NCBI GenBank assembly: GCA_903958915.1
Contig: CAJBVC010000916.1
Location: 1 to 20,410, forward strand
DNA: 20,410 nt
Direction of reading: 5' to 3'
Source: an uncultured beta proteobacterium
GTDB lineage: Bacteria > Pseudomonadota > Gammaproteobacteria > Burkholderiales > Burkholderiaceae_C
Shown: positions 2,270 to 19,212 of the stretch, piece by piece
How positions within the stretch are numbered: position 1 is the stretch's first letter
Layout of the letters: each line of letters opens with the position of its first letter
The notes under the pieces: model-generated
What the model was told of the DNA's origin: nothing
Seen by the model: only the letters and a program-made list of their open reading frames with translations
Database searches by the model: none
Made by a program: the position numbers and the translations under genes

Positions 2270-2348
2270 TTCCTAAGGGATTCCTCAAATGCGCCTCACG
2301 CTTGATGTCAAACGCCTGCACAGCAATTTCGACACATTCAACAAAATG

Positions 2349-2360
2349 GACAGCGCTGTC
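2349..2360. promoter_or_regulatory. LacI-type operator, gene-proximal copy before the GH1 gene
   Basis: GACAGCGCTGTC is a perfect 12-base palindrome with central CG, the usual centre of LacI-family operators. It lies 80 bases upstream of the GH1 start. Its centre is 32 bases from that of the second palindrome at 2379-2394. Confidence 0.7.
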
Positions 2361-2378
2361 ATATTCAATGAGGCGAAT

Positions 2379-2394
2379 TAGACAGCGGTGTCTA
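2379..2394. promoter_or_regulatory. LacI-type operator, distal copy before the GH1 gene
   Basis: TAGACAGCGGTGTCTA is a 16-base palindrome with one mismatched pair. With its flanks it matches the site at 19082-19097 at all but one position across about 21 bases, although that site lies 16.7 kb away before another gene set. Such long shared identity between two intergenic regions points to a common regulator, most simply the LacI protein encoded at 2491-3549. Confidence 0.75.
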
Positions 2395-2461
2395 TTTGAC
2401 TGGTATTGGGGTTTTCCCGATCTGTTGCTGCCAGCGCAATGTTCTTGAAATTGGCTGACTT

Positions 2462-2479
2462 GGCCAGGGCACTCTGGCC
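2462..2479. terminator. possible hairpin after the LacI gene
   Basis: GGCCAG and CTGGCC form a 6-base-pair stem around a 6-base loop, 12 bases beyond the stop of the LacI-family gene. An overlapping alternative pairing (AGGGC with GCCCT) also exists. No run of T follows on the minus strand, so a true intrinsic terminator is doubtful; it may only mark the 3' end of the regulator transcript. Confidence 0.25.
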
Positions 2480-2490
2480 CTCCGGGCTAT

Positions 2491-3549
2491 TCAGCGTTTC
2501 GCAGGTTTACCCGTTGACATACGAATAACGAGTTCATGCTCAAGCACCCGATGCTCTGATTCAATTGATTCCTCTGGAGCATCCTCCTGGGACTTTCCAG
2601 TTCCGATCAACATCTCAACTGCCATGCGTGCCATTTCATAAGTAGGCTGACTTACCGTAGTCAATTGTGGCCACACCAGTTTGGCTGCGGGAGAGTCATC
2701 GAAACCAGCAATGGATAGCGCTTTGGGCACATCAAGGCCGATGCTTTGTGCACCAGCAAGTACACCCAACGCCATCTCATCATTACTGGCAAATATGGCC
2801 GTCGGTCGATTCCTCGTCCCTAGAATTTTGTGGGCAGCCTCGACACCCGACTGAAACTTGAAGTCACCTGTGTAGACGAAGTCTTTGTTTACCGTGAGTC
2901 CGCGGGACTTCATGGCTCGCACGTATCCCTTGTAGCGTAGCGCAGAGGCTGCCTGATCTGCTGGGCCTTTGACAAATGCGATTTCTTTGTGGCCTAGATC
3001 GACAAGGTGAAGGGTGATTTCTTCAGCGGCCAATACATCGTCCATGCGAACACTGGGAATCCCTTCCCGTTCACGTGCCGGCGACATCAGCACGCAGGGG
3101 GTTCCGCTGTCGCGGAGTGCTTTGAGTACATGCGGGTTGTCACAAAGTGGCGGTGTAAGAATCATGCCGTCGGGCCGCAATGCGCTGACCATGTGGTCGA
3201 CTTGTTGGGCCAGGTCCGGAGCATCATCGCGGAGAGATTCGACAACCAGGTGGTAACCCGATTCGCGGCAACGCAAGGTCGCACCCTGTTGCACGCCACT
3301 TACAAACGCTGCGCTGGGATCGTAATAAAGTAGCCCGATCAGAAACGAGCGCGCTCCGGCCAGACTTCGTGCACTAAGTTTCGGACGGTATTTCATTTCC
3401 CCAACGACTTTGAGCACATGCTCCCTGGTAGAGCTATGGACCCCGGTCTCCCGATTCATTACTCGGGACACCGTTTTAATTGAGACTCCGGCCACACGTG
3501 CCACATCCGTGATGGTTGGGGAAGAATTTGCTCGGTCGTTTATTGCCAT
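2491..3549 (-). CDS. LacI-family transcriptional regulator
   Basis: A 352-residue regulator of normal LacI/GalR length. The N-terminal helix-turn-helix is at residues 11-32 (TITDVARVAGVSIKTVSRVMN), followed by the hinge YRPKLSARSLAG (54-65) and a periplasmic-binding-protein-like effector domain that starts at IGLLYYDPS. Effector-domain landmarks include AIFASNDEMALGVL and the AGFDDSPAAKLVWPQLTTVSQP segment typical of sugar-responsive members. Family knowledge: such proteins usually repress transport and catabolic genes and are released by a sugar or sugar phosphate. It sits between the GH1 unit and the divergent MFS-glucokinase unit. The matching operators before both units and at 19.05-19.10 kb suggest it controls the whole locus. 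The effector cannot be read from sequence; glucose, cellobiose or a glucuronate-containing disaccharide are candidates. Confidence 0.93.
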   Translation of the reverse strand: MAINDRANSSPTITDVARVAGVSIKTVSRVMNRETGVHSSTREHVLKVVGEMKYRPKLSARSLAGARSFLIGLLYYDPSAAFVSGVQQGATLRCRESGYHLVVESLRDDAPDLAQQVDHMVSALRPDGMILTPPLCDNPHVLKALRDSGTPCVLMSPAREREGIPSVRMDDVLAAEEITLHLVDLGHKEIAFVKGPADQAASALRYKGYVRAMKSRGLTVNKDFVYTGDFKFQSGVEAAHKILGTRNRPTAIFASNDEMALGVLAGAQSIGLDVPKALSIAGFDDSPAAKLVWPQLTTVSQPTYEMARMAVEMLIGTGKSQEDAPEESIESEHRVLEHELVIRMSTGKPAKR

Positions 3550-3659
3550 GGTTTGTCGAAAGGTCTGTTGAAGGCCGATGAACAGCCATTGTCGTCCCGA
3601 ATTCAGACGCCAAGCATAGTCGAAGGTAAACGCCCTAACTGGTATCGGTATTTCACCTA

Positions 3660-3688
3660 ATGACAGCGTTGTCAGTTTTCAGTATGAT
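3660..3688 (+). promoter_or_regulatory. sigma-70 promoter with overlapping LacI-type operator
   Basis: ATGACA (3660-3665), a 17-base spacer and TATGAT (3683-3688) form a good sigma-70 promoter for the plus-strand MFS-glucokinase-MATE unit. The palindrome TGACAGCGTTGTCA (3661-3674, one mismatched pair) covers the -35 box and the start of the spacer, so repressor binding would block polymerase. The expected transcript start is near 3695. The ATG at 3660, which begins the longest open frame, is therefore inside the -35 element and is not a translation start. Confidence 0.7.
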
Positions 3689-3745
3689 GCCCGCAAAATC
3701 ATCAGCCGGGATGTCCGTGTGCAGCGAGACGCCCAGCTACATTGC

Positions 3746-3750
3746 AGGAG
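3746..3750 (+). promoter_or_regulatory. ribosome binding site that decides the MFS start
   Basis: AGGAG lies eight bases before the GTG at 3759. It fixes the MFS start downstream of the promoter, and the encoded protein then begins in the usual way for the family, a few residues before FAWVPTAYLAEGIPF. Confidence 0.7.
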
Positions 3751-3758
3751 ACATCATT

Positions 3759-5090
3759 GTGAACAGCCCCTCGGCAAACCGATCCCCCTTCGCATGGGTT
3801 CCTACCGCATATCTGGCCGAGGGCATTCCGTTTGCCATGGTCATCTGGGTTGCAGGCACCCTGTTCAAAGACCTCGGGCATAGCGACAGCGAAATTACGC
3901 TGTCCACAGCGAGCATTGGCATTATGTGGTCGCTTAAGCCACTCTATGCAGGCTTTCTGGATATGTTCAAGACCAAACGCTTCTGGGTCATTGCCATGCA
4001 GTTGGTGATGGCAGCGTTGCTGGGCTTGTGGGCCTCATCACTAGCATTAACCAACTACTTTGTTGTAGTCATTCTGCTTCTTTGGCTTCTGGCCTTCGCA
4101 TCAGCTACGCAGGACATTTGCATTGATGGCGTTTACATCACCAGTCTGGGTGCGTCTGATCAGGGCAAGTTCATGGGGATACAAGGCGCCTTCTGGAATG
4201 CCGGCCGCATTTTTGCGACAGCTGCAATTGTCGGCATCGCAAGTCTTCTGCAAAGAAATGGCATGGACGCGCGTGCTGCCTGGGCAACAGCATTGGGGGT
4301 CAGCATGGGTGCGATGGCACTCTTGGCGATTTATCACTCATTTGTATTGCCTCCTGGCTCGCGATCCGAACGACCGGCTACCGCATTGGCAGTAGCGCTC
4401 ACTTTCAGAGACCAGTTTCTGGATTTTCTGCAAAAGCCTCACTTGCTCGGAATGCTCACGTTTGTTTTTCTATATCGACTTGGTGAAGGATTTCTGCTCC
4501 TGGAAGCACCGCTCTTTATGCAGGGGCAAGTGAGCAATGGGGGACTGGGCATGTGTGCAACCTCTGCAGTCAGCGCAGCTTGCCCCCACTTGCTTGAAAG
4601 CAAAGCACTCATTGATGGCCTCATAAGCACGGTAGTCAGTCTTGCCTTCGGCCTGTTGGGTGGAATCTTTGCGGGGAGATATGGATTGAACCGCAAAACA
4701 CTTGTCTTTATGGCTGTCTGCCTGAATTTGCCTCACATCACCTTCTACATTTTGAGCTGTATGGTATCCCCGGATGCTCCGGTCTCTCTATCGGTAATTG
4801 CCACGCTGGTGACCATCGAGAAGGCTGGATACTCATTTGGATTTGTTGCGAACATGCTCTACATGATGCAACAAATTTCGCCTGGAAAGTACCACATGAC
4901 GCACTATGCCTATTGCACCGCAATCATGAACCTGACGCTAATACCCACTCAGATGGCCAGCGGAGTTCTTGCAGACCACCTCGGCTTTCAAACGTTTTTC
5001 CTGGTCGTCATGGCAGCGTCGATACCCTCGGTGATTGGTGCCTACTTTGCTCCCTTTCCAAACAAGGTCGACAGCTCATCAAAACACTAA
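3759..5090 (+). CDS. MFS transporter (AmpG/PAT-like carrier)
   Basis: A multi-spanning inner-membrane carrier of 443 residues when started at the GTG at 3759. The longer open frame from 3660 would start inside the promoter and is rejected. The opening (WVPTAYLAEGIPFAMVIWVAGTLFKDLG, followed by an IKPL-like segment SLKPLYAGFLDMFKTKRFW) matches the AmpG/PAT-like MFS group. Members of this group often sit in sugar clusters and carry oligosaccharide, muropeptide or amino-sugar substrates. About twelve hydrophobic helices can be traced. A charged cytoplasmic loop of about 25 residues follows helix six. The central loop between helices seven and eight is longer than usual and carries several Cys residues (MCATSAVSAACPHLLESK). 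It is first in a unit with glucokinase and MATE genes. The likely substrate is a glucose- or glucuronate-containing oligosaccharide; this is inferred from context only. Confidence 0.85.
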   Translation: MNSPSANRSPFAWVPTAYLAEGIPFAMVIWVAGTLFKDLGHSDSEITLSTASIGIMWSLKPLYAGFLDMFKTKRFWVIAMQLVMAALLGLWASSLALTNYFVVVILLLWLLAFASATQDICIDGVYITSLGASDQGKFMGIQGAFWNAGRIFATAAIVGIASLLQRNGMDARAAWATALGVSMGAMALLAIYHSFVLPPGSRSERPATALAVALTFRDQFLDFLQKPHLLGMLTFVFLYRLGEGFLLLEAPLFMQGQVSNGGLGMCATSAVSAACPHLLESKALIDGLISTVVSLAFGLLGGIFAGRYGLNRKTLVFMAVCLNLPHITFYILSCMVSPDAPVSLSVIATLVTIEKAGYSFGFVANMLYMMQQISPGKYHMTHYAYCTAIMNLTLIPTQMASGVLADHLGFQTFFLVVMAASIPSVIGAYFAPFPNKVDSSSKH

Positions 5091-5117
5091 CGCCGATTGT
5101 CCGGCAGCGACAAACCT

Positions 5118-6095
5118 ATGAACACAAGTTTCCCCCGCTTGCTCGGAGATATAGGCGGCACCAATGCACGCTGGGCTTGGCAATCAAGCGCAGAAGCACC
5201 TTTGCAGGATGTAGCCGTGCTTTCATGTGCAGAAAACTCCAGCCTGCTTGAGTCAGCATCCCACTACCTTGATCTCCACGGTTTGGGACAACCTGCTGCG
5301 GCCAGCCTGGGAGTCGCAACTGCAATTAGCGGTGACACTGTCAGATTTACCAACAGCAATTGGTCATTCTCTATTGCAGAACTCAAAGGACACTTGCAGA
5401 TCGATCAATGTGTAGTCATCAATGACTTCACTGCACTGGCATTGAGTTTGCCGGCACTCACCGAGCACGATCTTCTGCGAATTGGCGGACGCGACGCAAA
5501 GCCTGCAGCACCAATCGCCTTGCTCGGACCAGGCACCGGTCTGGGTGTCTCCGGCCTGATTCCTGACAGACGTGGAGACTACGTAGCCCTAAGCGGCGAA
5601 GGTGGCCATGTAACGCTAGCGGCCAGTGATGCAAATGAAGCCGATGTTCTGAAAGAATTGCGTAGTCAGTTTGGACATGTGAGTGCCGAAAGAGTTCTGT
5701 CCGGTTCCGGTTTGATTCACCTTTACAACGCAGTGTGCAAGGTTAACGGCGTATCTGCTACAGCTCTTAATCCACAACAATTCAGTGACCTTGCCATCGG
5801 TCAGACTGATCTCCACTGCGGCCAGACTGTCCAAATCTTTGCCAGCTTCCTCGGAAATGTGGCTGGCAACCTCGCACTTTCACTGGGAGCCACTGGCGGT
5901 GTCTATATTGGAGGAGGTGTAGTACCCCGCTTAGGTACCGCCTTCGATAGAAATATATTTCGCAACAGTTTTGAGGCCAAGGGACGTTTCTCTTCCTATC
6001 TGGAATGCATCCCCTGCTGGCTTATTACTGCGCCTACTCCCGCACTATTGGGCGCATCGCGCGCCCTCGATCTGCATGTTCATGCGCGGCAATGA
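5118..6095 (+). CDS. glk: glucokinase (Glk family)
   Basis: A 325-residue ATP-dependent glucokinase of the bacterial Glk family, close to the E. coli length, which makes glucose 6-phosphate in the cytoplasm. The phosphate-binding loop LLGDIGGTNARWAW is at residues 8-21. The catalytic Asp103 lies in INDFTALALSLPAL, and LGPGTGLGVSGL (136-147) and SGEGGHVTLAASD (159-171) follow. The C-terminal GGVYIGGGVVPRLG motif completes the set. I chose the ATG at 5118; a TTG at 5097 would add seven residues with no family support. The gene starts 27 bases after the MFS stop, so the two are very likely co-transcribed. In context it phosphorylates glucose released by the GH1 and GH3 beta-glucosidases, whose unit carries matching operators. 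Confidence 0.95.
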   Translation: MNTSFPRLLGDIGGTNARWAWQSSAEAPLQDVAVLSCAENSSLLESASHYLDLHGLGQPAAASLGVATAISGDTVRFTNSNWSFSIAELKGHLQIDQCVVINDFTALALSLPALTEHDLLRIGGRDAKPAAPIALLGPGTGLGVSGLIPDRRGDYVALSGEGGHVTLAASDANEADVLKELRSQFGHVSAERVLSGSGLIHLYNAVCKVNGVSATALNPQQFSDLAIGQTDLHCGQTVQIFASFLGNVAGNLALSLGATGGVYIGGGVVPRLGTAFDRNIFRNSFEAKGRFSSYLECIPCWLITAPTPALLGASRALDLHVHARQ

Positions 6096-6163
6096 AAAGA
6101 TAGAACTAGGGTAGGCTCCTCAACCCCATTCAGACGCTTCAAAAATCCACTGTAAGCACTCCG

Positions 6164-7525: not shown

Positions 7526-7540
7526 GTCAGGTGCGGAAGA

Positions 7541-8497
7541 CTACGACCGCGGGAAAATCTGTTCAAGTTGTTTCCGATCGGGCAACCCGTCCCAATCACC
7601 GGGGAACTGAACCACGCGCGCTCCAATTGCGTTACCTCGCTCGGTAGCCTGCTGGAGAGTCTCACCTTCAAGCAGGGCACTAATTACGCCAACAGCGAAT
7701 CCATCACCTGGACCCACTGTATCGACGATGCGCTCTACAGGTACCGCTGCCACCAAACCGCTACGATGAGAATCTGCGAAATAGGCCCCCTTCGCGCCCA
7801 ATTTAATCACAACCTGTTTGGCACCCAAATTCAGAAAGAAATCCGCAACTCGTTCGACCCCTTTTGAACCCGATAGAATTTCACCCTCAGATAGCCCTGG
7901 CAATACAAGGTCTGCTTGCTGGGCAAGTCGATTGATGGTTTCGACCATGATCTTCGGCGACTTCCACAGTTGGGGGTGCAGATTGGGATCCAATGAAACA
8001 CTGCGGCGCTGGGTTCTGGCTTCTACAGCCATTTGAAAAGCAAGCTCAAGCGTAGATGCAGACAATGCAGGGGCAATACCCGTCAAATGCAGATGCTTTG
8101 ATAACCCGCAATATTCCGCCGGGTTGTCCGCCAGTCCGAGGCAACTAGCTGCTGAGCCCCGCCGGTGATACTCAATGGAGGGGTCATGGCCTCCGTCTAC
8201 GACTGACTTGAGCATGAACCCTGTGGGGCGCTCGCTATCCACCTGAACATGTGACCGGTCAATCTTTTCTTGGTCAAAAAAATTCAAAAGAAATTTCCCG
8301 AAGCTGTCGTTGCCTACACGGCTGACATATCCCACCCGCAACCCCAACTTGCTTAGGCCTACAGCCACATTGAGTTCGGCACCGGCGCTCAACTTCTTAA
8401 ATTGATGCACCAGCTCCAGCGGACCACTGTGACCCGCAATAAACAGCACCATGGCTTCCCCCATGGTAACCACGTCAACAGGTTGCACACTAGGCAC
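7541..8497 (-). CDS. kdgK: 2-keto-3-deoxygluconate kinase (PfkB family)
   Basis: A PfkB/ribokinase-fold sugar kinase of 318 residues from the GTG at 8497; a GTG at 8524 would give 327 and overlap kduD by 16 bases. I prefer 8497 because AGGTG lies eight bases upstream and the protein then opens close to DVVTMGEAMVLF, as relatives do. The substrate-binding segment KKLSAGAELNVAVGLSKLG and the C-terminal signature DTVGPGDGFAVGVISALL, with the catalytic Asp in GPGDGF, are intact. Placement directly after kduI and kduD points to 2-keto-3-deoxygluconate as substrate, giving KDPG, which an aldolase outside the window would split. PfkB enzymes vary in substrate, so the specific call rests on sequence resemblance plus neighbours. 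It is the last gene of the long minus-strand array. Confidence 0.88.
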   Translation of the reverse strand: MPSVQPVDVVTMGEAMVLFIAGHSGPLELVHQFKKLSAGAELNVAVGLSKLGLRVGYVSRVGNDSFGKFLLNFFDQEKIDRSHVQVDSERPTGFMLKSVVDGGHDPSIEYHRRGSAASCLGLADNPAEYCGLSKHLHLTGIAPALSASTLELAFQMAVEARTQRRSVSLDPNLHPQLWKSPKIMVETINRLAQQADLVLPGLSEGEILSGSKGVERVADFFLNLGAKQVVIKLGAKGAYFADSHRSGLVAAVPVERIVDTVGPGDGFAVGVISALLEGETLQQATERGNAIGARVVQFPGDWDGLPDRKQLEQIFPRS

Positions 8498-8508
8498 TGC
8501 AAAGGCAC

Positions 8509-9270
8509 CTAGCGGGCAAGCCACCCGCCGTCTACAGCGAGTGTATGTCCGTGCACATAATTGGATGCTTTGGAGGCAAGAAACACTGCAGGGCCCGCCA
8601 AATCATTAGGTTCACCCCACCGCCCTGCGGGTATGCGTTCCAGAATTGCGGAATTGCGCTGTGCATCAGCACGCAAGGGGGCCGTGTTGTTTGTGTCCAT
8701 GTAGCCTGGAGCAATGGCGTTAACGTTGATTCCATGCTTCGCCCATTCATTCGCTAACGCTCGGGTCACTCCCATCACCCCACTCTTAGCGGCCGTGTAA
8801 GAGGGAACCCGCACTCCGCCCTGGTAAGACAGCATCGACGCAATATTTATGATCTTTCCGCCAGTGCCCTGCGCCATAAACTGTCGCGCTACGGCCTGCG
8901 AAAAGAAGAACACGGTTTTCATGTTGAGATCAATAACATCGTCCCAGTCTTTTTCTGTGAAGTTAATAGCACCGTCGCGGCGAATGATGCCAGCGTTGTT
9001 GACGAGAATATCGACCGTGCCGGTGAGTTTGAGGGCGGCAGTTACAAGGCCGCTGAGACCACCGATGTCGGACAAATTGGCGCGTAGATCCAAAAACGTT
9101 CGGCCCAAAGCTTCGACATTTTCTTGAGTTTCATGTGGGGCACTTTGGTTGACGCCGACGATGTCCGCCCCAGCCTGCGCCAGTGCCATAGCCATACCTT
9201 GGCCCAGGCCAGTATTGCATCCTGTGACGATGGCCACTCGGCCCTGCAACTGAAAATTCTCGAAATTCAT
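8509..9270 (-). CDS. kduD: 2-dehydro-3-deoxy-D-gluconate 5-dehydrogenase KduD
   Basis: A classical short-chain dehydrogenase of 253 residues that closely follows the KduD pattern. It has the nucleotide-binding TGCNTGLGQG (16-25), NNAGIIRRDG (91-100), and the catalytic triad Ser145, Tyr158, Lys162 in ASMLSYQGGVRVPSYTAAK. The C-terminal RIPAGRWGEPNDL and VHGHTLAVDGGWLAR are hallmark KduD segments. It reduces 2,5-diketo-3-deoxygluconate to 2-keto-3-deoxygluconate in the cytoplasm, using NADH in known enzymes. It lies 11 bases after kduI and 11 bases before the preferred kdgK start, in pathway order. The enzyme is shared by pectin and unsaturated glucuronate routes; the GH88 gene upstream favours the glucuronate route here. 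Confidence 0.96.
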   Translation of the reverse strand: MNFENFQLQGRVAIVTGCNTGLGQGMAMALAQAGADIVGVNQSAPHETQENVEALGRTFLDLRANLSDIGGLSGLVTAALKLTGTVDILVNNAGIIRRDGAINFTEKDWDDVIDLNMKTVFFFSQAVARQFMAQGTGGKIINIASMLSYQGGVRVPSYTAAKSGVMGVTRALANEWAKHGINVNAIAPGYMDTNNTAPLRADAQRNSAILERIPAGRWGEPNDLAGPAVFLASKASNYVHGHTLAVDGGWLAR

Positions 9271-9281
9271 GATCGCTCTTA

Positions 9282-10118
9282 TTAACGTAAGGTGGTCATA
9301 GGTATATGGTCCATATCCGGAAAGACCTGGTTTTCCCCGACCATGCCCCAGATGAAGGTGTAGGCCTGGGTACCTACTCCGGTGTGGATGCTCCAGCTCG
9401 GGTTGATAACCGCTTGTTCGTTGCCCACCACCACATGGCGGGTTTGAGTGGGTTCGCCCATCATGTGGAACACCACCGCGTCCGACTTCATGTCGAAATA
9501 GAAGTACACCTCCATGCGCCGATCATGGGTATGGCAGGGCATGGTGTTCCAAACGCTACCCGGCTCCAGCTGGGTCATACCCATAAGCAGCTGACAGGTC
9601 GGAAGCACGCTGGGCACAAAGAATTTGTAGATGGTGCGCCGGTTGCTCGTCTCTGCAGATCCCAACGTTTCGGGTGAAGCCTGCGCCAGAGTTACCGTGC
9701 GGTGGGGGTATGCAGTGTGGGCGGGGGCACAATTGCAATAGAGCTTGGCAGGAGCATCGCTGCTCACGCTGGAAAACTCAAGCTCTTTGGCACCCTGCCC
9801 CACATAGAGTGCTTCACGCGGCCCCACTTCAAACGTAGCTCCATCCACCACTACTACTGCGGCCCCGCCAATATTGATCAACCCCAGTTCCCGACGTTGC
9901 AAAAAGAAGTCGGTGCCCGAGTGCTTTCCCAGTGACGCGTCAAACGTCACGCCTTGGGACACCGGCATGATTCCGCCCACAATTATTCGATCAATCTGGC
10001 TATAGGTCAGGGTAGCCTTGTCTGGTTGAAACATCTCCTCGACAAGAAAGTGTCGGCGCAGACCTTCTGTATCGAGCGTTCGGGCGTGTTCGCTGTGAAT
10101 GGGCTGACGGATTTGCAT
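9282..10118 (-). CDS. kduI: 5-dehydro-4-deoxy-D-glucuronate isomerase KduI
   Basis: A 278-residue cupin-type isomerase that converts 4-deoxy-L-threo-5-hexulose uronate to 2,5-diketo-3-deoxygluconate. The metal ligands are present at the same positions as in the E. coli enzyme: His196, His198 and Glu203 in [15 protein letters not shown], and His245 in [10 protein letters not shown]. The N-terminal [26 protein letters not shown] and the C-terminal [17 protein letters not shown] are also characteristic. It takes the open-chain product that forms once GH88 frees unsaturated glucuronate. It starts 36 bases after the two-repeat exported protein gene and is followed at 11 bases by kduD, so it is in the same minus-strand transcript. 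Length and motifs are complete. Confidence 0.97.
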
Positions 10119-10154
10119 GTTGAAATTCGGTGAGTTTGTAAAACGTCTTTGAGA

Positions 10155-11369: not shown

Positions 11370-12274
11370 GGAATGCTATGCCCGTTAGCGGCCACCCAAA
11401 GCGCGTACCAATCTTCACGCTCCAATGTCAGGGTGGACGCAAGTACAGCGCTTTCTATGCGTTCCAACTTGTTAGTGCCAATGACAGGTAAAGGACGACT
11501 CGGGTGCCCCATCACCCATGCATAGGCAAGTTGTTCAAGCGTTGCACCGCCGTACTTACTGGCCAATACACTGGCCGCTTTGGCAAGGCGAATTGCTGCT
11601 GGGTTGCTTGCATCGAACAATTTGCCACCTGCCAGTGGACTCCACGCCATGGGTTGCACTCGAAGTTGCTGGCAGAGATCAAAGGTGCCATCCACAACGG
11701 CATCCATATTCAGCAAATGGAATTCCACCTGATTCGTGATCAGGGGAGTGTCCATCCGGCTATTTAAAGCCTGAAATTGCGTGGGTGTGTAGTTGGATAC
11801 GCCAGCGCACTGAATCTTGCCCTCTTGCATTAGCGCATTAAGACCCTGAGCTGTATCGTCAATGCTGGTGAGCCAATCTGGACGATGAACCAGAAACAAA
11901 TCGATTTTCTCGCGCCGGAGCAACCTCAGTGAAGTTTCCACGCTCTTTTTTGTTTGCTCTGCGGATGCGTCATAAAAGCCGACAGTGCGCTCTGGGTTTT
12001 TGGGGTTAGGTACATAGATTCCCGACTTGGTAACGATGCGCAGCTTGTCGTTCAGACCTGGGGAAAGGGCTATGGCCTCGCCGAGAGCTGCTTCGACGTT
12101 ATACCCACCATATATTTCCGCGGTATCAATGGTCGTAATTCCCAGCTCTACGCACCGGTTCAGTCTGCGATTGATTTCCTGGTTGGAGGGCGCACCATCG
12201 AGCATGCGCCAGGTTCCATACACCATTCGCGAGGAGAATATGTCATTGGAAGTAGGGGATGAAGTAGCGCTCAT
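11366..12274 (-). CDS. aldo/keto reductase (YdhF-like)
   Basis: A 302-residue NADPH-type aldo/keto reductase of the YdhF-like group. The catalytic tetrad is readable: Asp50 and Tyr55 in DTAEIYGGY, Lys83 in IVTKSGI, and His130 in LVHRPD. Barrel landmarks GVSNYTPTQF and QVEFHLLNMD, and the cofactor segment PVIGTNKLERIESAV, are present. There is no signal peptide, so it is cytoplasmic. The start overlaps the GH88 stop by four bases (ATGA), and its own stop overlaps the next ATG in the same manner. The substrate is unknown; reduction of an aldehyde or ketone in the uronate pathway, such as the open-chain 4-deoxy-5-keto-uronate, is a reasonable inference because the gene is locked between GH88 and the Kdu genes. 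Confidence 0.88.
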   Translation of the reverse strand: MSATSSPTSNDIFSSRMVYGTWRMLDGAPSNQEINRRLNRCVELGITTIDTAEIYGGYNVEAALGEAIALSPGLNDKLRIVTKSGIYVPNPKNPERTVGFYDASAEQTKKSVETSLRLLRREKIDLFLVHRPDWLTSIDDTAQGLNALMQEGKIQCAGVSNYTPTQFQALNSRMDTPLITNQVEFHLLNMDAVVDGTFDLCQQLRVQPMAWSPLAGGKLFDASNPAAIRLAKAASVLASKYGGATLEQLAYAWVMGHPSRPLPVIGTNKLERIESAVLASTLTLEREDWYALWVAANGHSIP

Positions 12275-13431
12275 GGATTTGCGTTTGTTAGGTTTAGAGC
12301 ACTGTCATATGCGAGTAGTGCTTCAAGGAGGTAGTAGTCCCCAAATATGAGACTGGTGTTGGTCAACCTATGGCTGGCATCAGAGTGGTAGTTACGCGCT
12401 TGGTAACGCAATGCACTGGCGAAATCTGAGCTTGTCGAAAAGTACGGCTCCTTGACAAGACTGCTGAGCGTTTGGACTGCAGCATCCCAATACTTGGTCT
12501 TATCAACCAACGTTGAACTAAATCGGCTAAGTCGAAAGAACGCACAAGCTGCCAAAGCGGCAGCACTCGAGTCTTTGAACTCAACGCTAACTAAATCGCT
12601 ATTGAAATCTGAGGGCGGGACATGGTCCTCAGGCAATCTGGCCAAATAATATTGGGCCGCTTCGATGGATTGCTTTAGATAGGCATCAACACCTGTTACT
12701 TCGTACAAATAGGCATAACCGTAGATGGCCCAGGTCTGCCCCCGTGACCAACAGCTTTCATCGTGCATGCCCTGATGGGTGTATTTGCGCTTAACTTGAC
12801 CGGTGGCAGGATCCAAGTCCAGCACATGGTATGTGCTGTCATCCACCCTGAAGAATTCAACAATTGAGCGATCTGCATGGTCCAACGCAATTCGCTTGAG
12901 ATCTGCAGGACCACCATTGTCTGAAGCCCATATCAGCAACTCCAGGTTCATCATATTGTCAATGATGACAATATAGTTTCTGGAGTCATCGATGTCACCC
13001 CAGGATCGAATCAGCCCTACTTTCGGGCTAAAGCGTTTGGCCAAGCTTTGTGCAGCCTGGAGCACCACCGATTTGTAGCGCTGCTCGCCAGTCAACCGGA
13101 ATGCGTGTCCGAAACTGTCCATAATCATGAAGCCCAAATCATGGTTGGTGGTGGTGAACTGTTCTTCTGCCAGGCCCACCGTCCACGTATCGGCACGATG
13201 CCGCCATTGTTCCCGGTCTGGCCAGTCACGCCGCTTAGCAAATTCATAGGCGTACCAAAGTGCCCCTGGGTAGAAACCACTCACCCAGTCTGGCGCAGGA
13301 ACCGTGGACCAAATAGCTCCTTTGGCCTCGTTGGGATACGCTGTTTTGTCAAGTTGCTCTGCGTCGTAGGCTGCAAGCTTGCGAGCGATGCTGGCAATTG
13401 CCGCATCGACGTCAATATTTGAGTTATTCAT
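12271..13431 (-). CDS. GH88 unsaturated glucuronyl hydrolase
   Basis: A 386-residue alpha/alpha-barrel hydrolase of family GH88. It removes the 4,5-unsaturated glucuronate left at the non-reducing end by a polysaccharide lyase; the freed sugar opens to 4-deoxy-5-hexulose uronate. Asp98 in TNHDLGF and Asp158 in IVIIDNMMNLELL correspond in sequence context and spacing (60 residues) to the paired catalytic and binding Asp residues of Bacillus UGL. PDWVSGFYPGALWYAYE (47-63), YTHQGMHDESCWSRGQTWAIYGYAYLY and EFKDSSAAALAA are also typical. No signal peptide is evident, so oligosaccharides are probably imported first. It lies 33 bases after the SDR gene and overlaps the aldo/keto reductase by ATGA. 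GH105 is the main alternative; the WSRGQTWAIYG and HDLGF context favours GH88. Confidence 0.92.
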   Translation of the reverse strand: MNNSNIDVDAAIASIARKLAAYDAEQLDKTAYPNEAKGAIWSTVPAPDWVSGFYPGALWYAYEFAKRRDWPDREQWRHRADTWTVGLAEEQFTTTNHDLGFMIMDSFGHAFRLTGEQRYKSVVLQAAQSLAKRFSPKVGLIRSWGDIDDSRNYIVIIDNMMNLELLIWASDNGGPADLKRIALDHADRSIVEFFRVDDSTYHVLDLDPATGQVKRKYTHQGMHDESCWSRGQTWAIYGYAYLYEVTGVDAYLKQSIEAAQYYLARLPEDHVPPSDFNSDLVSVEFKDSSAAALAACAFFRLSRFSSTLVDKTKYWDAAVQTLSSLVKEPYFSTSSDFASALRYQARNYHSDASHRLTNTSLIFGDYYLLEALLAYDSALNLTNANP

Positions 13432-13464
13432 TGCATTCGAGGTTTGAGGCTTGCTAACGGTGAT

Positions 13465-14196
13465 TTACTTTGCCAAAGCCTTTTCTAGTGCAGAGGCCAA
13501 CTCCAGTCCTGAATAGTCCTGAGCACGCATGAAGCGACCACTGACGCCATCATTGAGCAAAGCAGGCACCAAGGCACCAGGAAGTACGGTTACCGGATCA
13601 TTGGGCGCATTGGGGCCACCCAGATCTGTGCGTAACCAACCTGGATCCAGCAGATTCATTTGCACGCCGGTACCGGCCAGCTTGGGCACAAAGTCCCGCA
13701 CAAACTTGTCTACCGCAGCTTTGGAGACGGAATAGGCGGATAACTCAGGCTGCTCTTGAATTCCTGAGGTTAGGTTAATGATCCGCCCCCACTTACGTTC
13801 AATCATGGATGGCAGCAGACGATTGCATATCCTTGCCAGACTTATGACATTCACTTCAAAACTAGTGCGATAGTCCTCGGCAGGAGTCTCCAAATGGTTC
13901 TGCCGGTAGGGCGTCATAATTGCTGCGTTGTTGTAGACAATGTCGATTTGTCCCGCTTTGGAAAGGGCCTCATCCAAGAAACGGTCGACCTGGCCCTGAT
14001 CAGAAAGCTCCCCAGAAACGGTGATGACCTGTACCCCTAGCAGCTTGAGTTTTTTTGCAATGATTTCGGTATGAGCCAATTCTCGACTGTGCAATATGAG
14101 GTTGGAGCCCAAATTTGCGAGCCCTTCACTGATGTGCAGACCTACGCCCCTGCTTGCGCCGGTAATGAGTGACCATTTGCCATGTAGTGTTTTCAT
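13465..14196 (-). CDS. SDR family oxidoreductase
   Basis: A 243-residue classical short-chain dehydrogenase. It has the cofactor motif TGASRGVG (12-19), the NNAA motif (89-92), and the triad Ser144, Tyr155, Lys159 (LTSGIQEQPELSAYSVSK). The PGWLRTDLGGPNAP segment after the active site is seen in several poorly characterised SDRs. An Arg after the first Gly motif and HSRE after beta-2 would suit NADP(H), but this is only a hint. The gene follows the molybdopterin subunit by 80 bases and precedes GH88 by 33 bases on the same strand. The substrate is not readable; a role in reducing a keto-uronate or handling the molybdoenzyme product is inferred. It is not a second KduD: the C-terminal signature is missing. 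Confidence 0.85.
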   Translation of the reverse strand: MKTLHGKWSLITGASRGVGLHISEGLANLGSNLILHSRELAHTEIIAKKLKLLGVQVITVSGELSDQGQVDRFLDEALSKAGQIDIVYNNAAIMTPYRQNHLETPAEDYRTSFEVNVISLARICNRLLPSMIERKWGRIINLTSGIQEQPELSAYSVSKAAVDKFVRDFVPKLAGTGVQMNLLDPGWLRTDLGGPNAPNDPVTVLPGALVPALLNDGVSGRFMRAQDYSGLELASALEKALAK

Positions 14197-14276
14197 AGAA
14201 CTTTACTTTCTGAATAGATAGATGACTGCGGGCACGACTTTGCCTCGTGCACAGATTGGTACATCGAAACTCCGTA

Positions 14277-17108
14277 CTAAGCGAAGTGGAGATGCGTGAA
14301 GGTAGCTTTGATTGCTTGCGCTTCGTTATGCGAAGTCGCTGCCAAGCCCAAGAATCCGCTCCTTGAAATACTTTGACGGTGTTGGCAATATTGCTTCCAC
14401 TGAACTCCATCGCGACTGCTTTGGCAGATAAACAGATCCTCTTTTCGGATTAACTTCAGCCATACATGGGGAAAATTCACCGGAAAGTCGGGTATCTGCG
14501 GTAGCGGCTGTGGCGGGTATACGGCTGAGCATGTGCCGCCTTTCTTTATGCGGGACTGAAACTCAAGGCCACCATTATTTTTATTACGTGGATCGTTGTT
14601 GCCAAACGCCACAAGCATGACATGTTCAGACCCGTCATCCAAAGTCGACCTGTACATGATCCCTGCCTTGGAATACAGGTCTGCCATCTCTACGGATTCA
14701 ATCTTCACACTGATTTCGAAATCCCCATTGGCCGGTACATGTGCAAAGTGACACTCATCACGCAGTCCCCAAATATCTGCCCCTCCAGCAGAAACTTCCA
14801 CGGAGTTGTTTAACTGCTGTGTGTGTCCTGAGATGCGTGGTGAGCCGATATCAAGACCAAGGAGTTTGAGATTATTCATAGCGTGTGGATTGGTTTGATG
14901 AGTGCGCAGCGCTGTTTTTGAGATTGGAAGTCGTCGGATGCGGGTTCCAGTCGCTGCATAGATCGCATTGCAGACGGCGGGTGCCAGTGGCGGCAAAGCA
15001 GGCTCTCCCAGACCGGTCGGAGGGCTATTGCTTTCGATAAAGTAGACGTCGATCTGGGACGGGGCAGCATTTATGCGCAGTAAGGGGAAGTCATTGAAAT
15101 TCGACTCATTGACTTTTCCCTGCCCGATCGTTAACTCCTGCAACCACGTCGAACTCAATCCGTCAATGATCGATCCTTGAACCTGGCTTTCAGCTCCGCT
15201 GTAATTAACGATTGGGCCGACATCAACTGCCGCGACAACACGATTCACCACCAGTACTCCATCTGCTGAAACGGTAACCTCGGCCACTTCTGCCACATAG
15301 CCCTGGTGGCAAAAATGAAAGGCGATGCCCTGCCCAGAGCCGATTGGCATCTTTTTGCCCCATCCTGCCTTCTCCGCCGCCAGCCTAAGCACTGATTTCA
15401 TTCGCGCAGTGTCGAAAGGTGGATCCCATCGCCCGGTCCCCGAGAAGATGCGGGATGTGCCTAGAAGTTGCAAGCGAAAGTCCAATGGGTTCTTTCCAGC
15501 TTGATGTGCCAGTTCATCGATGAAGCTCTGAGTTGCGAACGCAATTCCGTTGCTGCCTGGCGCGCGGTACCAGCTTGTCGGTACGTTGCAGCTAATGACG
15601 GACTTTTCCAATCGATAGTTTGGAACAAATCGACCGGGAAACTCACGTCCTTCTATGTCGGCCGCCATTCCCGGTTGTTTGACATTGTTTAAGCCAACGG
15701 TGACAAAGTGGTTTCTCCAGGCGGTGAGGTTTCCCGAACTATCAAGGCCTGCCTCGAGAAAGTGCCAACCGGGAGGTCGATATTGCCCATGTTGGGTATC
15801 GCTTTCGCGTGTCCACGTCAACTTCACAGGGCGACCGATTCGGTGGGCTATAGCAGCTGCCTCCGCTACAAAGTCGTTCGTTAGACGGCGCCCGAACGCT
15901 CCGCCGCAGCGCGTAAATTGCATCACCACCTTGGTCTTGGAGACTTTGAGGACAGTCGCGGCGAGGTCCCGCGCACCCTCTGGATTCTGTGTTGGCGCAA
16001 TGATTTTCATCCCGCCATTCGCCATTGGAATGGCAAGGGCGTTCATCGGCTCCAAGGGTGCATGGTGCAGAAATGGGTAGTGATACTCGCCCGTAACGAC
16101 CGATGAAGCGATACTAAGCGCCAGCTTGGTGTCGCCTGTGTTTTGGACAAGCGATCCCTGGCCTTTTCCCAACTGTGCCGCCTGGTGCTCGTAACTTTCC
16201 GAACTTTCTTCTTTCCTTGCGCTGGAAGCCCAGACGACGTTCAATTCGTCTTGAGCGACAAAAGTCACCCAGGTGGACTCCCCCACAATAGCAACTCCAG
16301 GTAGTAGTCCATAGTAGTCAGAGGTGCCATCCAGGATGAATGCGTCAACGATTCCGGGAAGTTTCCTTATGTGATCTAAGTTTGCGGACAGTGCCTTGGT
16401 GCCAGGGATGGGACATTTGGCATACACGGCATGAACCATTCCAGGAGTAGTTTGATCGATACCAAACAGCGCCTGGCCTTTAACGATCGCATGGTTGTCG
16501 ACTCCGCCGATTCGCTTCCCAAGCAGCTTGCCTTCCTTTTTTCTTCGCGGCGCAATGTCTTTCGATCGCGGTAATGGTAATTGCGCGGCCTTTGTGGCGA
16601 GTTCACCAAACCCCAGCGACCGACCGGATGGAATATGCCAGACGCGACTGTTCTCCGCTGCACATTCTTTTGACGACACGGTCCACATGGATGCCGCAGC
16701 CTGAATCAACATCGTGCGTGCGATTTCACCTGCCTTTTGTAGCGGCTGATAACTGTCAAAAACTGACATACTTCCACCGGCTTCTTGCGGGCCAAGTTCA
16801 GCCCTAAGGTCACCGTACTCGATTTGTACCGCTGTGAAATCTGCGCCTATTGAATCTGCCAAGATCATTGGCAATGAAGTCTTTACTCCCTGCCCGAGCT
16901 CTGGAATCTTCGCAACGATATGAACTGTTCCATCGGGAAGAATCTTCACAAATGGACTCGGTGCGAACTGCCTATTTGAAGCGTGGTTCTTGGCTCCCCT
17001 GCCGGACGTCGATGGTTGCGCATATGTCATGCTCACCAATAGTCCTCCACCCAGGAGAGAGGAGACCTGCAGAAACTTTCGACGCGATCCTGAGTGCAGC
17101 GCGTTCAT
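14277..17108 (-). CDS. Tat-exported molybdopterin-binding oxidoreductase (IorB-like) with C-terminal lectin-like domain
   Basis: Large subunit of a xanthine-oxidase-family molybdenum hydroxylase, 943 residues from the ATG at 17108. That start overlaps the small-subunit stop as ATGA and places SRRKFLQVSSLLGGGLLVS, a twin-arginine signal, at residues 8-26; the longer frame to 17180 is rejected. The core (about 45-740) follows isoquinoline 1-oxidoreductase beta subunits: cofactor loops CGGAFGRR (401-408) and WYRAPGSN (513-520), and the catalytic Glu702 in PTGLGEPALPPLAP. Residues from about 744 to the end form an extra module absent from ordinary family members: GGADIWGLRDECHFAHVP, DLYSKAGIMYRSTLDDGSEHVM, and a closing GFLGLAATSH stretch. 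It resembles the concanavalin-A-like (DUF1349-type) modules often attached to secreted carbohydrate-active enzymes. The substrate is unknown; a sugar or aldehyde in the periplasm is inferred. Confidence 0.9.
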   Translation of the reverse strand: MNALHSGSRRKFLQVSSLLGGGLLVSMTYAQPSTSGRGAKNHASNRQFAPSPFVKILPDGTVHIVAKIPELGQGVKTSLPMILADSIGADFTAVQIEYGDLRAELGPQEAGGSMSVFDSYQPLQKAGEIARTMLIQAAASMWTVSSKECAAENSRVWHIPSGRSLGFGELATKAAQLPLPRSKDIAPRRKKEGKLLGKRIGGVDNHAIVKGQALFGIDQTTPGMVHAVYAKCPIPGTKALSANLDHIRKLPGIVDAFILDGTSDYYGLLPGVAIVGESTWVTFVAQDELNVVWASSARKEESSESYEHQAAQLGKGQGSLVQNTGDTKLALSIASSVVTGEYHYPFLHHAPLEPMNALAIPMANGGMKIIAPTQNPEGARDLAATVLKVSKTKVVMQFTRCGGAFGRRLTNDFVAEAAAIAHRIGRPVKLTWTRESDTQHGQYRPPGWHFLEAGLDSSGNLTAWRNHFVTVGLNNVKQPGMAADIEGREFPGRFVPNYRLEKSVISCNVPTSWYRAPGSNGIAFATQSFIDELAHQAGKNPLDFRLQLLGTSRIFSGTGRWDPPFDTARMKSVLRLAAEKAGWGKKMPIGSGQGIAFHFCHQGYVAEVAEVTVSADGVLVVNRVVAAVDVGPIVNYSGAESQVQGSIIDGLSSTWLQELTIGQGKVNESNFNDFPLLRINAAPSQIDVYFIESNSPPTGLGEPALPPLAPAVCNAIYAATGTRIRRLPISKTALRTHQTNPHAMNNLKLLGLDIGSPRISGHTQQLNNSVEVSAGGADIWGLRDECHFAHVPANGDFEISVKIESVEMADLYSKAGIMYRSTLDDGSEHVMLVAFGNNDPRNKNNGGLEFQSRIKKGGTCSAVYPPQPLPQIPDFPVNFPHVWLKLIRKEDLFICQSSRDGVQWKQYCQHRQSISRSGFLGLAATSHNEAQAIKATFTHLHFA

Positions 17109-17575
17109 GACTTTGCACCAATCGTCTTGGCTGCTTCTTTGATTGCTGCGCGAATGCGTACGTAGGTTCCGCAACGGCACAGAATTCCAACCATAGCTGC
17201 GTCGATTTGCCTATCAGTCGGTGTTGGATTTCGCTTCAACAATGCTGCGGCGGCCATGATTTGCCCTCCCTGGCAGTAGCCGCATTGTGGTACATCAAGG
17301 TCGCACCATGCGCGTTGCAGCGGATGCGCTCCTGCAGGATCGAGTCCTTCAATCGTGGTAATCGATTGAGACCCAACATTGGATACTGAGATCATGCAAG
17401 ACCGCTTAGCCACACCATCTATGTGGACCGTACATGCGCCGCAAATGCCCATTCCACAGCCGTACTTGGTTCCAGGTAGCGACAAGTTGTCCCTTAGAAC
17501 CCACAGCAGTGGAGTGTCATCAGCCACATCGACAGTGCGGAATTGGTCATTGATCTTTAGTGTGAAGGTTGTCAT
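17105..17575 (-). CDS. [2Fe-2S] subunit of molybdenum hydroxylase (IorA-like)
   Basis: A 156-residue iron-sulfur subunit that carries electrons from the molybdopterin subunit encoded next. The plant-ferredoxin-type cluster is bound by Cys40, Cys45, Cys48 and Cys60 (YGCGMGICGACTVHIDG, then SC). The second cluster is bound by Cys98, Cys101, Cys133 and Cys135 (QCGYCQGGQIM and CRCGTYVRIRAAI). I start at the ATG at 17575, with AGGA five bases upstream; the open frame extends to 17602 without family support. It has no signal peptide, so it presumably travels with the Tat-carried large subunit, as in related periplasmic enzymes. No FAD subunit and no cytochrome c subunit is encoded nearby, so the electron acceptor is unclear. 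Confidence 0.94.
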   Translation of the reverse strand: MTTFTLKINDQFRTVDVADDTPLLWVLRDNLSLPGTKYGCGMGICGACTVHIDGVAKRSCMISVSNVGSQSITTIEGLDPAGAHPLQRAWCDLDVPQCGYCQGGQIMAAAALLKRNPTPTDRQIDAAMVGILCRCGTYVRIRAAIKEAAKTIGAKS

Positions 17576-17638
17576 AGAGGTCCTGTAAATTGATCGGATC
17601 AAGTTTCAGTTCTCAGAGTAAGTTTGGGGCGACTGGAT

Positions 17639-19018
17639 CTACTGCCCTGGAGCGACATATGCACTTTGTCCACCGTTTTCCTGCCAATGGCGATGAACTT
17701 TCCAACCCACCGCAACCGACGCAAATGCCATTAGGCTTCCTGCCAGAAACGTGTATCGGTAATTGTTGCCAAGCTGATCCAACGCCATACCAAGAATTGG
17801 CGCTAACAACATACTGAAGAGTGCTTGAAATAGTCCTGCAGCGGCTGCAAACTGTGCAAACTTTAACTGGGGATAGAGCAGTTGTCCGATTGCAGCTGTT
17901 CCTGTCCAATAGATTCCTGAGACGATCCCATGTGCCAGAAGTGCAAATCCAAACGATTGCTGATCGTTCATCAGAAAATAGCAAATGAGGGATAGGCTGC
18001 CATATAGCATCAGTGACACCTGACCGACTCGGATGGCGTGGAAACGATCAACCAACCAACCAATGGGTATCGACAAGGCGAATGAACACGCGAATGTTGC
18101 TACAAGATATTTCCCATAGGTTTCCATACTCATACCGTAGCTTTTCGCCGCGTAGATGGCAAATGTGTTCACCGGCAAGAATGTTGCTGTACTCAAACCA
18201 ATGAAGCAAAAGACCCAGATGTAGTAGCGCTGTGAGAGGCAATCGCGGTAGTAGTCCCTTAGTGCGCCTTGAAGCGCATATGTTCCAGGTTCACGCGGTA
18301 GGGGCGGAGGGTATTGCCCCTCTTTGACGCGAAAACACATCAGGGAGAAGCCGAGACCGTATAGCAAGCCGACTCCGACAAAGAATGCCGTGTAGTTCTG
18401 TTCGACTTTGCCGATGATCTGGTAGTTGAAGATCATGCCGACTGCCAGACCAACCGCTCGGAACATGCCGTAAAAACGCCCAAGCCATTCACGCGGCACC
18501 ACGTCGTTCACTAAGCCATTGAAGACGGAGTTGGAGATGACCACGCCTATCTCAAAGATCGTCCAGAACAGGGTCATCATGAGCAGGATCGATGTGCTCT
18601 TGGTTTCCTCGCTAGCGCCTAACCAATGATGTAATTCAGCTCCAATGAGTGGACTGAATCCCAATCCAATCATCGCGAGTGAGACGAATGGCGTTGGCAA
18701 CAGAAGGAAGGGAATGCGCCGCCCCCAACGTCCACGATGCCTATCGCTCCAGTAGCTAATAACCGGACCAACAAGAAAGATCATCGCTTGGGGAATGGTG
18801 ACGAGGAAAAGCCCTGTCACAAGGTCCGACGCGTTGTACTGTTTAAGCATCAGTTGCGCAACCGGTGCTGCGGAACGTTCGCGCAGCATGTACGCCAGAT
18901 CACCAAACAGGAGCCATGCAGACAAAGTGATGAGTCCGACCGACGTATACGTGAGACTGCCAACCGACCATCTACATGCGGACCGCTGTAGTGGCTTTGT
19001 AGAAGCGCTAGTGATCAT
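17639..19018 (-). CDS. MFS sugar transporter (GPH/SLC45-like)
   Basis: A 459-residue inner-membrane carrier with about twelve helices. The loop motif SYWSDRHRGRWGRRIPFLLLPTP after helix two is the D-R-x-x-G-R-R-x-P signature shared by glycoside-pentoside-hexuronide symporters and sucrose-carrier-like MFS proteins. FEIGVVISNSVFNGLVNDVVPREWLGRFYGMFRAVG in the middle supports the same group. These proteins bring in mono- or disaccharides, often uronides, with H+ or Na+. It is the first gene of the long minus-strand array, starting just below the operator pair at 19055-19097 and ending 63 bases before the [2Fe-2S] gene. The most likely cargo is the unsaturated or glucuronate-containing oligosaccharide that cytoplasmic GH88 then cuts. 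No strong Shine-Dalgarno precedes its ATG. Confidence 0.88.
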   Translation of the reverse strand: MITSASTKPLQRSACRWSVGSLTYTSVGLITLSAWLLFGDLAYMLRERSAAPVAQLMLKQYNASDLVTGLFLVTIPQAMIFLVGPVISYWSDRHRGRWGRRIPFLLLPTPFVSLAMIGLGFSPLIGAELHHWLGASEETKSTSILLMMTLFWTIFEIGVVISNSVFNGLVNDVVPREWLGRFYGMFRAVGLAVGMIFNYQIIGKVEQNYTAFFVGVGLLYGLGFSLMCFRVKEGQYPPPLPREPGTYALQGALRDYYRDCLSQRYYIWVFCFIGLSTATFLPVNTFAIYAAKSYGMSMETYGKYLVATFACSFALSIPIGWLVDRFHAIRVGQVSLMLYGSLSLICYFLMNDQQSFGFALLAHGIVSGIYWTGTAAIGQLLYPQLKFAQFAAAAGLFQALFSMLLAPILGMALDQLGNNYRYTFLAGSLMAFASVAVGWKVHRHWQENGGQSAYVAPGQ

Positions 19019-19052
19019 GTTCGGTCGTTTAATAATGCGTTTAGCAATTGCG

Positions 19053-19081
19053 TTGACAACGTTGTCTGTACTGGCTAAGAT
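19053..19081 (+). promoter_or_regulatory. sigma-70 promoter for the leader ORF-xdhC unit
   Basis: TTGACA (19053-19058), a 17-base spacer and TAAGAT (19076-19081) form a near-consensus promoter reading right. The first operator (19055-19066) overlaps its -35 box and the second (19082-19097) covers the expected start point near 19088, an ideal layout for repression. Confidence 0.75.
19055..19066. promoter_or_regulatory. LacI-type operator, first copy in the divergent region
   Basis: GACAACGTTGTC is a perfect 12-base palindrome with central CG. It overlaps the -35 box of the rightward promoter and lies 37 bases upstream of the leftward MFS start, so it could govern both directions. Confidence 0.7.
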
Positions 19082-19097
19082 TAGACAGCGTTGTCTA
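19082..19097. promoter_or_regulatory. LacI-type operator, second copy in the divergent region
   Basis: TAGACAGCGTTGTCTA is a 16-base palindrome with one mismatched pair, centred 29 bases from the first copy. Read toward the minus-strand gene, the order (16-base site, then 12-base site) is the same as before the GH1 gene, and the flanking bases AAA and AT are also shared. Confidence 0.75.
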
Positions 19098-19122
19098 TTT
19101 GGTTAATACTAGGAGTTACCCT

Positions 19123-19209: not shown

Positions 19210-19212
19210 TAC

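Follow-up and report, generated by a model that had tools for sequence, protein, structure and literature searches.

In a 20,410-bp contig of an uncultured betaproteobacterium of the Burkholderiaceae_C (CAJBVC010000916.1, assembly GCA_903958915.1), which at its full length is called the window here, five palindromes of the form GACA-N4-TGTC are found around a gene encoding a LacI-family regulator (2491-3549). These palindromes are very probably the operators of this LacI protein, a predicted BglR-like repressor of beta-glucoside use, which would jointly govern a beta-glucoside core, a leftward operon encoding a molybdoenzyme and enzymes of uronate catabolism, and the XdhC side of the same divergent region. 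Computed support is given by the sites themselves, their specificity, their recurrence with lacI relatives, the correspondence between motif and recognition helix, and the overlap with promoters.

Palindromic sites in the window and their specificity

The window comprises the entire contig C916 of a draft genome of 4.5 Mb in 982 contigs, for which 93% completeness and 6% contamination were estimated. The regulator gene and the predicted operators are given below; L037 is the locus of the closest LacI relative.

2349..2360, operator O1, GACAGCGCTGTC, the GH1-proximal one, centred 85.5 bp before the GH1 start; aligned to the operator upstream of GH1 in L037
2379..2394, operator O2, TAGACAGCGGTGTCTA, the GH1-distal one, 117.5 bp before the start; 32 bp from O1, centre to centre
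2491..3549, minus strand, LacI-family regulator with helix SIKTVSRV (Pfam PF00356 and PF13377)
3660..3675, operator O3, ATGACAGCGTTGTCAG, in the lacI/MFS gap, overlapping a -35 box; kept in L037 along with the -10 box
19053..19068, operator O4, TTGACAACGTTGTCTG, overlapping the -35 boxes of both divergent promoters
19082..19097, operator O5, TAGACAGCGTTGTCTA, directly after the rightward -10 box; 29 bp from O4, centre to centre

The pattern GACANNNNTGTC occurs exactly five times in the window, as the first-pass annotation had read it, versus 0.37 copies expected from shuffles, and none of 100 shuffles reached five. The 12-base cores are located at 2349-2360, 2381-2392, 3662-3673, 19055-19066 and 19084-19095, and all of them carry the central CG, while the base adjoining it breaks the palindrome in three copies. 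Twelve palindromes of the form NNNN.CG.NNNN are present in the window; GACA accounts for five of them and every other word is single. With the gene limits set in this analysis all five sites are intergenic, for which the chance is ~2e-7 given an intergenic share of 4.6%. They are confined to the three gaps that exceed 100 bp (221, 161 and 194 bp) and absent from the nine shorter gaps, in agreement with the earlier statement that they occur solely before gene units. The flanks shared by the 16-base copies at 2379 and 19082 were likewise recovered, since these distal copies are identical at 21 of 22 bases (ATTAGACAGCGKTGTCTATTTG).

Operator centres lie 42.5-117.5 bp from the nearest assigned start, within the LacI-family expectation of mostly 30-140 bp; the distances of the divergent-region operators to the XdhC start are 152.5 and 123.5 bp. 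O3 (3662) is also 118.5 bp upstream of lacI, and lacI may therefore be autoregulated. Within the two pairs the centre spacings of 32 and 29 bp are correct as first described, and the 32 bp between O1 and O2 are close to the proposed three helical turns, but the 29 bp between O4 and O5 correspond to ~2.8 turns. The window gave no Rfam match to an RNA element at gathering scores.

Across the source genome the core pattern GACANCGNTGTC was counted 18 times, five of these in the window, against seven for the reversed-pattern control. Each of the 13 remaining copies lies within an open reading frame (ORF); these ORFs were not shown to be genes, and for the copies at L005 and L010, in short overlapping ORFs, the coding status is less sure. 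The 16-base form WWGACARCGYTGTCWW with at most one mismatch occurs eight times (control 1), five times in the window and three times within ORFs. No further regulon member was found elsewhere in the draft genome, as all other 12-mer and 16-mer matches are within ORFs, and as an intergenic element the motif is locus-specific within this assembly. A motif frequent and randomly placed in the genome, which would speak against a local regulon, was thus not observed, the copies outside the window being few and within ORFs. Scored with a matrix derived from the motif copies in the betaproteobacterial loci L037-L076, the five window sites reached 19.9-23.8 and the next best stretch, a coding one, 9.8, while 30 random windows gave 17.9 at the highest and 7.7 on average. 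Since the same 12-base pattern had served to select these training copies, this test is only partly independent and mainly confirms that no weaker site lies in between.

Recurrence of the motif with relatives of the LacI protein

The best 80 of 425 loci with relatives of the lacI gene were fetched, 40 betaproteobacterial (L037-L076) and 40 more distant ones (L077-L116). In these 1.47 Mb the motif was found 123 times, compared to 2, 6, 0, 0, 3 and 9 copies of six control patterns. It is present in 34 of the 40 betaproteobacterial loci, and 32 of the 40 have a pair no more than 40 bp apart (21-34 bp). Outside the window the pair spacings are 21-24 bp (28 pairs), 27 bp (one pair, in the closest relative) and 33-34 bp (six pairs). 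Tandem LacI-family sites were described to peak at spacings of 13, 22 and 32 bp in the available part of PMC4052901; the window's 32 bp fits these peaks, whereas its 29 bp and the 27 bp of the closest relative do not.

The closest relative, L037, belongs to a metagenome-assembled genome of Comamonas sp. lk (2.7 Mb) and encodes a LacI with 77% identity. Its genome has three copies of the motif, one in the MFS/lacI gap and a pair before GH1. When the MFS/lacI gaps of both loci are compared, the longest identical blocks are the operator and a GTATGAT box; before GH1 both operators and CATTGAA are kept, with a five-base indel between the operators. Upstream of the GH1 operators a further block, GGGGTTTTCCCG at 2408-2419, is identical in L037 and is possibly a site of another regulator. 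The core of GH1, MFS transporter and lacI is common to the window and this relative, and the uronate/molybdoenzyme operon appears to be an addition.

Genes behind the sites in relatives encode GH1 enzymes, GH9 and GH5 cellulase-like proteins, a TonB receptor, MFS transporters and a tryptophan-halogenase-like protein (Pfam was applied to proteins of L037, L038, L045 and L047). L047, L049 and L050 have two operator pairs with 23 bp spacing in one intergenic region near 20070-20350, the left gene in L047 being the TonB receptor. Downstream of the operator-fronted GH1 gene of L037, an Alginate_lyase-family protein (11440-12636), which gave no PDB match, hints that uronate glycans may belong to the regulon there. 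Of 16 chosen whole genomes 14 have a lacI relative, namely those of L037, L038 and L041 and 11 of the 13 genomes, the source genome not counted, that were matched in a search for this LacI; G013 and G366 have none. A pair 22-34 bp apart is present in 12 of these 14, in 11 of them on the lacI contig within ~6.5 kb.

The motif also corresponds to the recognition helix. According to the part of PMC2978694 at hand, arginine at AA-20 of a TVSR helix pairs with G at NT-6 and AA-15/16 set NT-5/-4; the helix SIKTVSRV and the half-site TGACA agree with the AA-20/NT-6 pairing. Loci whose LacI has the helix S.KTVSRV carry the motif in 61 of 70 cases and loci with other helices in 0 of 10 (Fisher p 6e-8, the loci being related), and eight control palindromes appear in at most 11 of the 70 and two of the 10. 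Nine SPKTVSRV loci have variants with T or A adjoining the central CG, which fits the AA-15/NT-2 link published there. An even palindrome with central CG was assigned to 1173 of 1303 LacI-family transcription factors (PMC4052901, as far as accessible), bearing out the earlier remark that a central CG is typical of LacI-family operators. The LacI-family domain at 2491-3549 is the only regulator domain found among the scanned window proteins, again as proposed. Taken together, genome specificity, recurrence near lacI relatives, helix correspondence and the fact that no second such helix was found in this genome strongly support the earlier suggestion of one operator family bound by the local LacI.

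Genes, promoters and alternative readings

The genes of the window are as follows; the sites fall into the gaps before GH1, between lacI and the first MFS gene (MFSa), and between the second MFS gene (MFSb) and XdhC.

1..720, minus, N-terminal part of a GH3 protein, cut by the contig end (Pfam PF00933)
893..2269, minus, GH1 beta-glucosidase-like enzyme (Pfam PF00232, E 2.5e-153; PDB beta-glucosidases)
3711..5090, plus, MFS transporter MFSa, AmpG-like (Pfam, scanned from 3720; NCBIfam 2A0125 below cut-off)
5118..6095, plus, glucokinase (Pfam PF02685, scanned from 5097)
6164-7525, MATE transporter after the glucokinase; its L037 relative (76%) adjoins MFSa
7541..8524, minus, PfkB-type sugar kinase, candidate 2-keto-3-deoxygluconate (KDG) kinase (Pfam PfkB)
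8509..9270, minus, KduD (NCBIfam kduD over cut-off)
9282..10118, minus, KduI (NCBIfam equivalog over cut-off)
12271..13431, minus, GH88-like unsaturated glucuronyl hydrolase (PDB 3wiw, 1vd5, E 6e-53 and weaker; Pfam GH88 below cut-off)
14277..17108, minus, xanthine-oxidase-family molybdopterin subunit (Pfam, scanned to 17180; twin-arginine-like N-terminus by eye)
17105..17575, minus, 2Fe-2S subunit of the molybdoenzyme (Pfam Fer2 and Fer2_2, scanned to 17602)
17639..19018, minus, MFS transporter MFSb, first gene of the leftward operon (Pfam; relatives)
19213..20259, plus, XdhC-family maturation factor (Pfam XdhC_C and XdhC_CoxI)
20259-20410, gene cut by the contig end, MobA-like look (weak match, E 0.0025, below cut-off)

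Ten genes are read leftward from 19018 to 7541, encoding MFSb, the 2Fe-2S subunit, the molybdopterin subunit, an SDR, the GH88-like protein, an aldo-keto reductase, a 404-aa protein, KduI, KduD and the PfkB kinase, for which the KDG kinase role is suggested by the neighbouring genes. For the 404-aa protein (10155-11369), searches of Pfam, NCBIfam and the PDB gave no hit at the cut-offs applied. The molybdoenzyme is marked as a member of the xanthine oxidase family by its MoCoBD domains, by the two [2Fe-2S] domains of one subunit and by the XdhC-type chaperone gene, and the best solved relative of its molybdopterin subunit is an aldehyde dehydrogenase large subunit (8gy3). This subunit is further extended at its C-terminus by ~200 aa that match DUF1349 weakly (below cut-off), a feature common to fifteen of the best 120 relatives (920-966 aa, the query's own cluster included), while most others listed end near 735 aa.

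Two stretches, 2200-3800 and 18900-19300, were scanned for promoters and yielded two and three promoter-like sites, compared to 0.9 and 0.6 in shuffles. Three of these are consensus promoters of the gene units:

3660..3688, plus, sigma-70-like, ATGACA-17-TATGAT, MFS unit
19053..19081, plus, sigma-70-like, TTGACA-17-TAAGAT, towards XdhC
19032..19059, minus, sigma-70-like, TTGTCA-16-CATTAT, towards the MFS/molybdoenzyme operon

Four of the five promoter-like sites overlap operators (3660, 19053, 19082 with TAGACA-17-AATACT, and 19059 on the other strand), and the fifth, at 3137, is inside lacI. A -10-like hexamer (4/6 match, A2 and T6 fixed) was looked for in the window together with the 40 betaproteobacterial loci, which are related. 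At 16-18 bases from the operator NNGACA it is present in 25% of the 162 site-orientations, compared to 4.9% for control offsets, and in 33% when the offset is moved by one base. An operator half thus often serves as -35 box, suggesting that repression works by occlusion. The four transcription starts assigned in the first-pass annotation are accordingly backed by consensus promoters for the MFS unit and both divergent directions, but none was detected for GH1 in the scan of 2200-3800. A 28-codon ORF (19123-19209) with a good ribosome-binding site (AGGAG) ends right before the XdhC start, which has no clear ribosome-binding site of its own; it is possibly a leader peptide or a gene remnant.

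From these data we infer LacI binding, repression, an inducer and read-through across the whole leftward operon. Without inducer, probably a beta-glucoside or glucose, LacI dimers would occupy the sites and block RNA polymerase, with the operator half NTGACA itself being the -35 box at 3660 and 19053 and with O4 and O5 flanking the rightward -10 box. The inducer would free LacI, so that GH1-(lipoprotein)-GH3, MFSa-glucokinase, the leftward MFSb-molybdoenzyme-uronate operon and the rightward XdhC-MobA-like genes may be switched on together. That the regulon includes the molybdoenzyme and its maturation genes, as proposed before, is suggested by the operators in the divergent region and by the close packing of the leftward genes. 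Its description as self-contained is weakened, because the GH3 and MobA-like genes run off the contig, which ends at 20410, and the assembly is incomplete and partly contaminated.

Several observations weigh against this regulon or limit its support, among them the lack of a consensus promoter for GH1 and the 29 bp spacing of O4 and O5, which is off helical phase. The motif is missing within the fetched flanks of six of the 40 betaproteobacterial loci and from nine of the 70 S.KTVSRV loci; it occurs in 27 of the 40 more distant loci, none of which has a pair, and in five of the 34 motif-bearing betaproteobacterial loci (L043, L046, L055, L056, L058) copies lie within a long ORF according to the ORF script. 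The tests overstate independence, as the loci are mutually related, and the helix tally takes copies anywhere in a locus. In the 16 whole genomes the strict motif GACARCGYTGTC is at background level (1-9 copies versus 0-7 for the control); G034 has two single sites, G030 nine scattered single sites and no pair, and the pair of G144 is on a contig other than that of lacI. In addition, the contig could be misbinned, given the 6% contamination: the one same-genus genome searched for it had no LacI ortholog at 1e-60, and four had no MFSb at 1e-80. In that case the genome-wide counts would describe a different organism, and the evidence from relatives would be unaffected.

The sites might be those of LacI and nevertheless govern MFSb and XdhC only, the molybdoenzyme and uronate genes having their main promoter elsewhere. 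Two gaps, one of 80 bp (14197-14276) and one of 63 bp (17576-17638), and a promoter-like minus-strand site at 12998 (10/12 score) are in line with such an arrangement, but the latter sits within the GH88-like gene and the nine junctions of the operon are tight, with five gaps of 11-80 bp and four overlaps. Moreover, promoter-like (6 vs 10.0) and terminator-like sites (11 vs 13.5) between 6000 and 19000 are not above their numbers in shuffles and hence give no signal for internal starts or stops, which renders this arrangement unlikely. Activation or dual regulation at some sites, for which the distal GH1 site 117.5 bp upstream of a start without consensus promoter and a dual LacI-family regulator predicted in the accessible part of PMC4052901 could be cited, is quite improbable, as O3, O4 and O5 overlap or abut sigma-70-like promoter boxes, which fits repression.

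Binding by another LacI-family protein of the same organism is considered very improbable. A paralog could be missing from an assembly that is 93% complete in 982 contigs, but of the three LacI helix-turn-helix domains found in the genome (the two others having GVGTASRV and SPSTVSRI) S.KTVSRV is present in the window's only, and lacI is located between two of the operator regions, likewise in L037. Chance, or -35 boxes converging on TTGACA, the sigma-70 consensus whose TGACA is one half of the motif, was rejected as practically negligible: the second half and the central CG are left unexplained by convergence, and the counts in shuffles and relatives, the 16-mer genome counts and the helix correspondence all contradict it. 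That NagR of Shewanella or Xanthomonas has a near-identical operator was not confirmed; an exact-word literature search returned no paper relevant by its title and the accessible part of PMC5343134 gave no motif.

Origin of the leftward operon and relation to known regulons

Relatives of MFSb at E <= 1e-80 were found in three of the other 398 family genomes searched (G013, G034, G366), and a GH88 relative at 1e-40 in four of 18 chosen genomes, namely the source genome and the same three, a few kb from MFSb. Like the window, these clusters combine MFSb (44-47%), a KduD-like SDR (55-59%) and GH88 (~33%) within a few kb; unlike it, they adjoin another LacI (34% identity) with the helix SVMTVSRA, ALVTTSRA or ALVTASRA and lack a GACA palindrome in the 17 kb retrieved. 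G034 also has an orthologous LacI (68%), on a contig other than the uronate cluster; of its two sites one is beside an MFS gene (38%) and the other beside a GH1-glucokinase pair. The two parts are thus under separate regulators in G034, while one operator family is shared in the window.

MFSb was detected in none of 368 genomes besides the source genome in a class-wide sample at 1e-70, nor in the genomes of L037, L038, L039 and L041 at 1e-30, nor in viral contigs. The genome of L037 has two distant matches to the molybdoenzyme (36% and 32%). Among 29 other molybdoenzyme loci of the family the motif occurs in two (L121, L140), both times inside the Fer2 gene and never in a promoter. Among the matches listed (best 120 of 1435 for MFSb, best 120 of 5273 for the molybdoenzyme), the best named relatives of MFSb are from Lacunisphaera (63%), Oleiharenicola (60%) and an Acidobacteriota bacterium (59%), and those of the molybdoenzyme from Didemnitutus, Lacunisphaera and Opitutus (58-59%); Lacunisphaera and Oleiharenicola are Opitutaceae.

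Judged by these matches, the molybdoenzyme and uronate genes seem to be an addition specific to this lineage, and an imported operon captured by the LacI regulon is reasonable but unproven. It is quite possible, though somewhat doubtful, that the beta-glucoside LacI regulon captured a foreign Opitutaceae-like operon for a molybdoenzyme and unsaturated uronates, which lost the control by its own LacI, as seen for the transporter/GH88 part in relatives, and was rewired via the operator pair in the shared divergent promoter. One sugar signal would then induce glycan cleavage, uronate catabolism and a periplasmic molybdenum aldehyde dehydrogenase with its cofactor maturation, perhaps for a heteroglycan with beta-glucose and glucuronate.

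In its gene content, the window's regulon is comparable to the BglR type of beta-glucoside regulon. In the available part of the Shewanella study (PMC2996990), a novel LacI-type regulator has predicted sites upstream of divergent operons, as in the window, and the regulon comprises beta-glucosidases, transporters, a glucokinase and an outer-membrane transporter; relatives of the window also have a TonB receptor. Unlike the window, that part mentions no uronate catabolism or molybdoenzyme, and the Shewanella glucokinase is ROK-type whereas the window's is PF02685. LacI regulators BglR1-3 and GluR were predicted for beta-glucoside or glucose genes in Caulobacterales (PMC4052901, as far as available). 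The Asticcacaulis loci L082 and L084 have GACAACGCTGTC, and their LacI is ~47% identical to the window's. A literature search of titles and abstract starts found no description of a LacI regulon joining beta-glucoside, uronate and molybdoenzyme functions; the kind of system is well known and the particular combination is of modest novelty.

Overall, the regulon is most aptly described as a conserved core of beta-glucoside genes with a lineage-specific addition. It would illustrate clearly how a local repressor can extend its control to an adjacent and possibly imported operon, with G034 as a related genome in which core and addition are under separate regulators. A molybdenum enzyme and its chaperone tied to a sugar signal would point to a substrate with both beta-glucose and uronic acid, and this link makes the uncharacterised molybdoenzyme testable.

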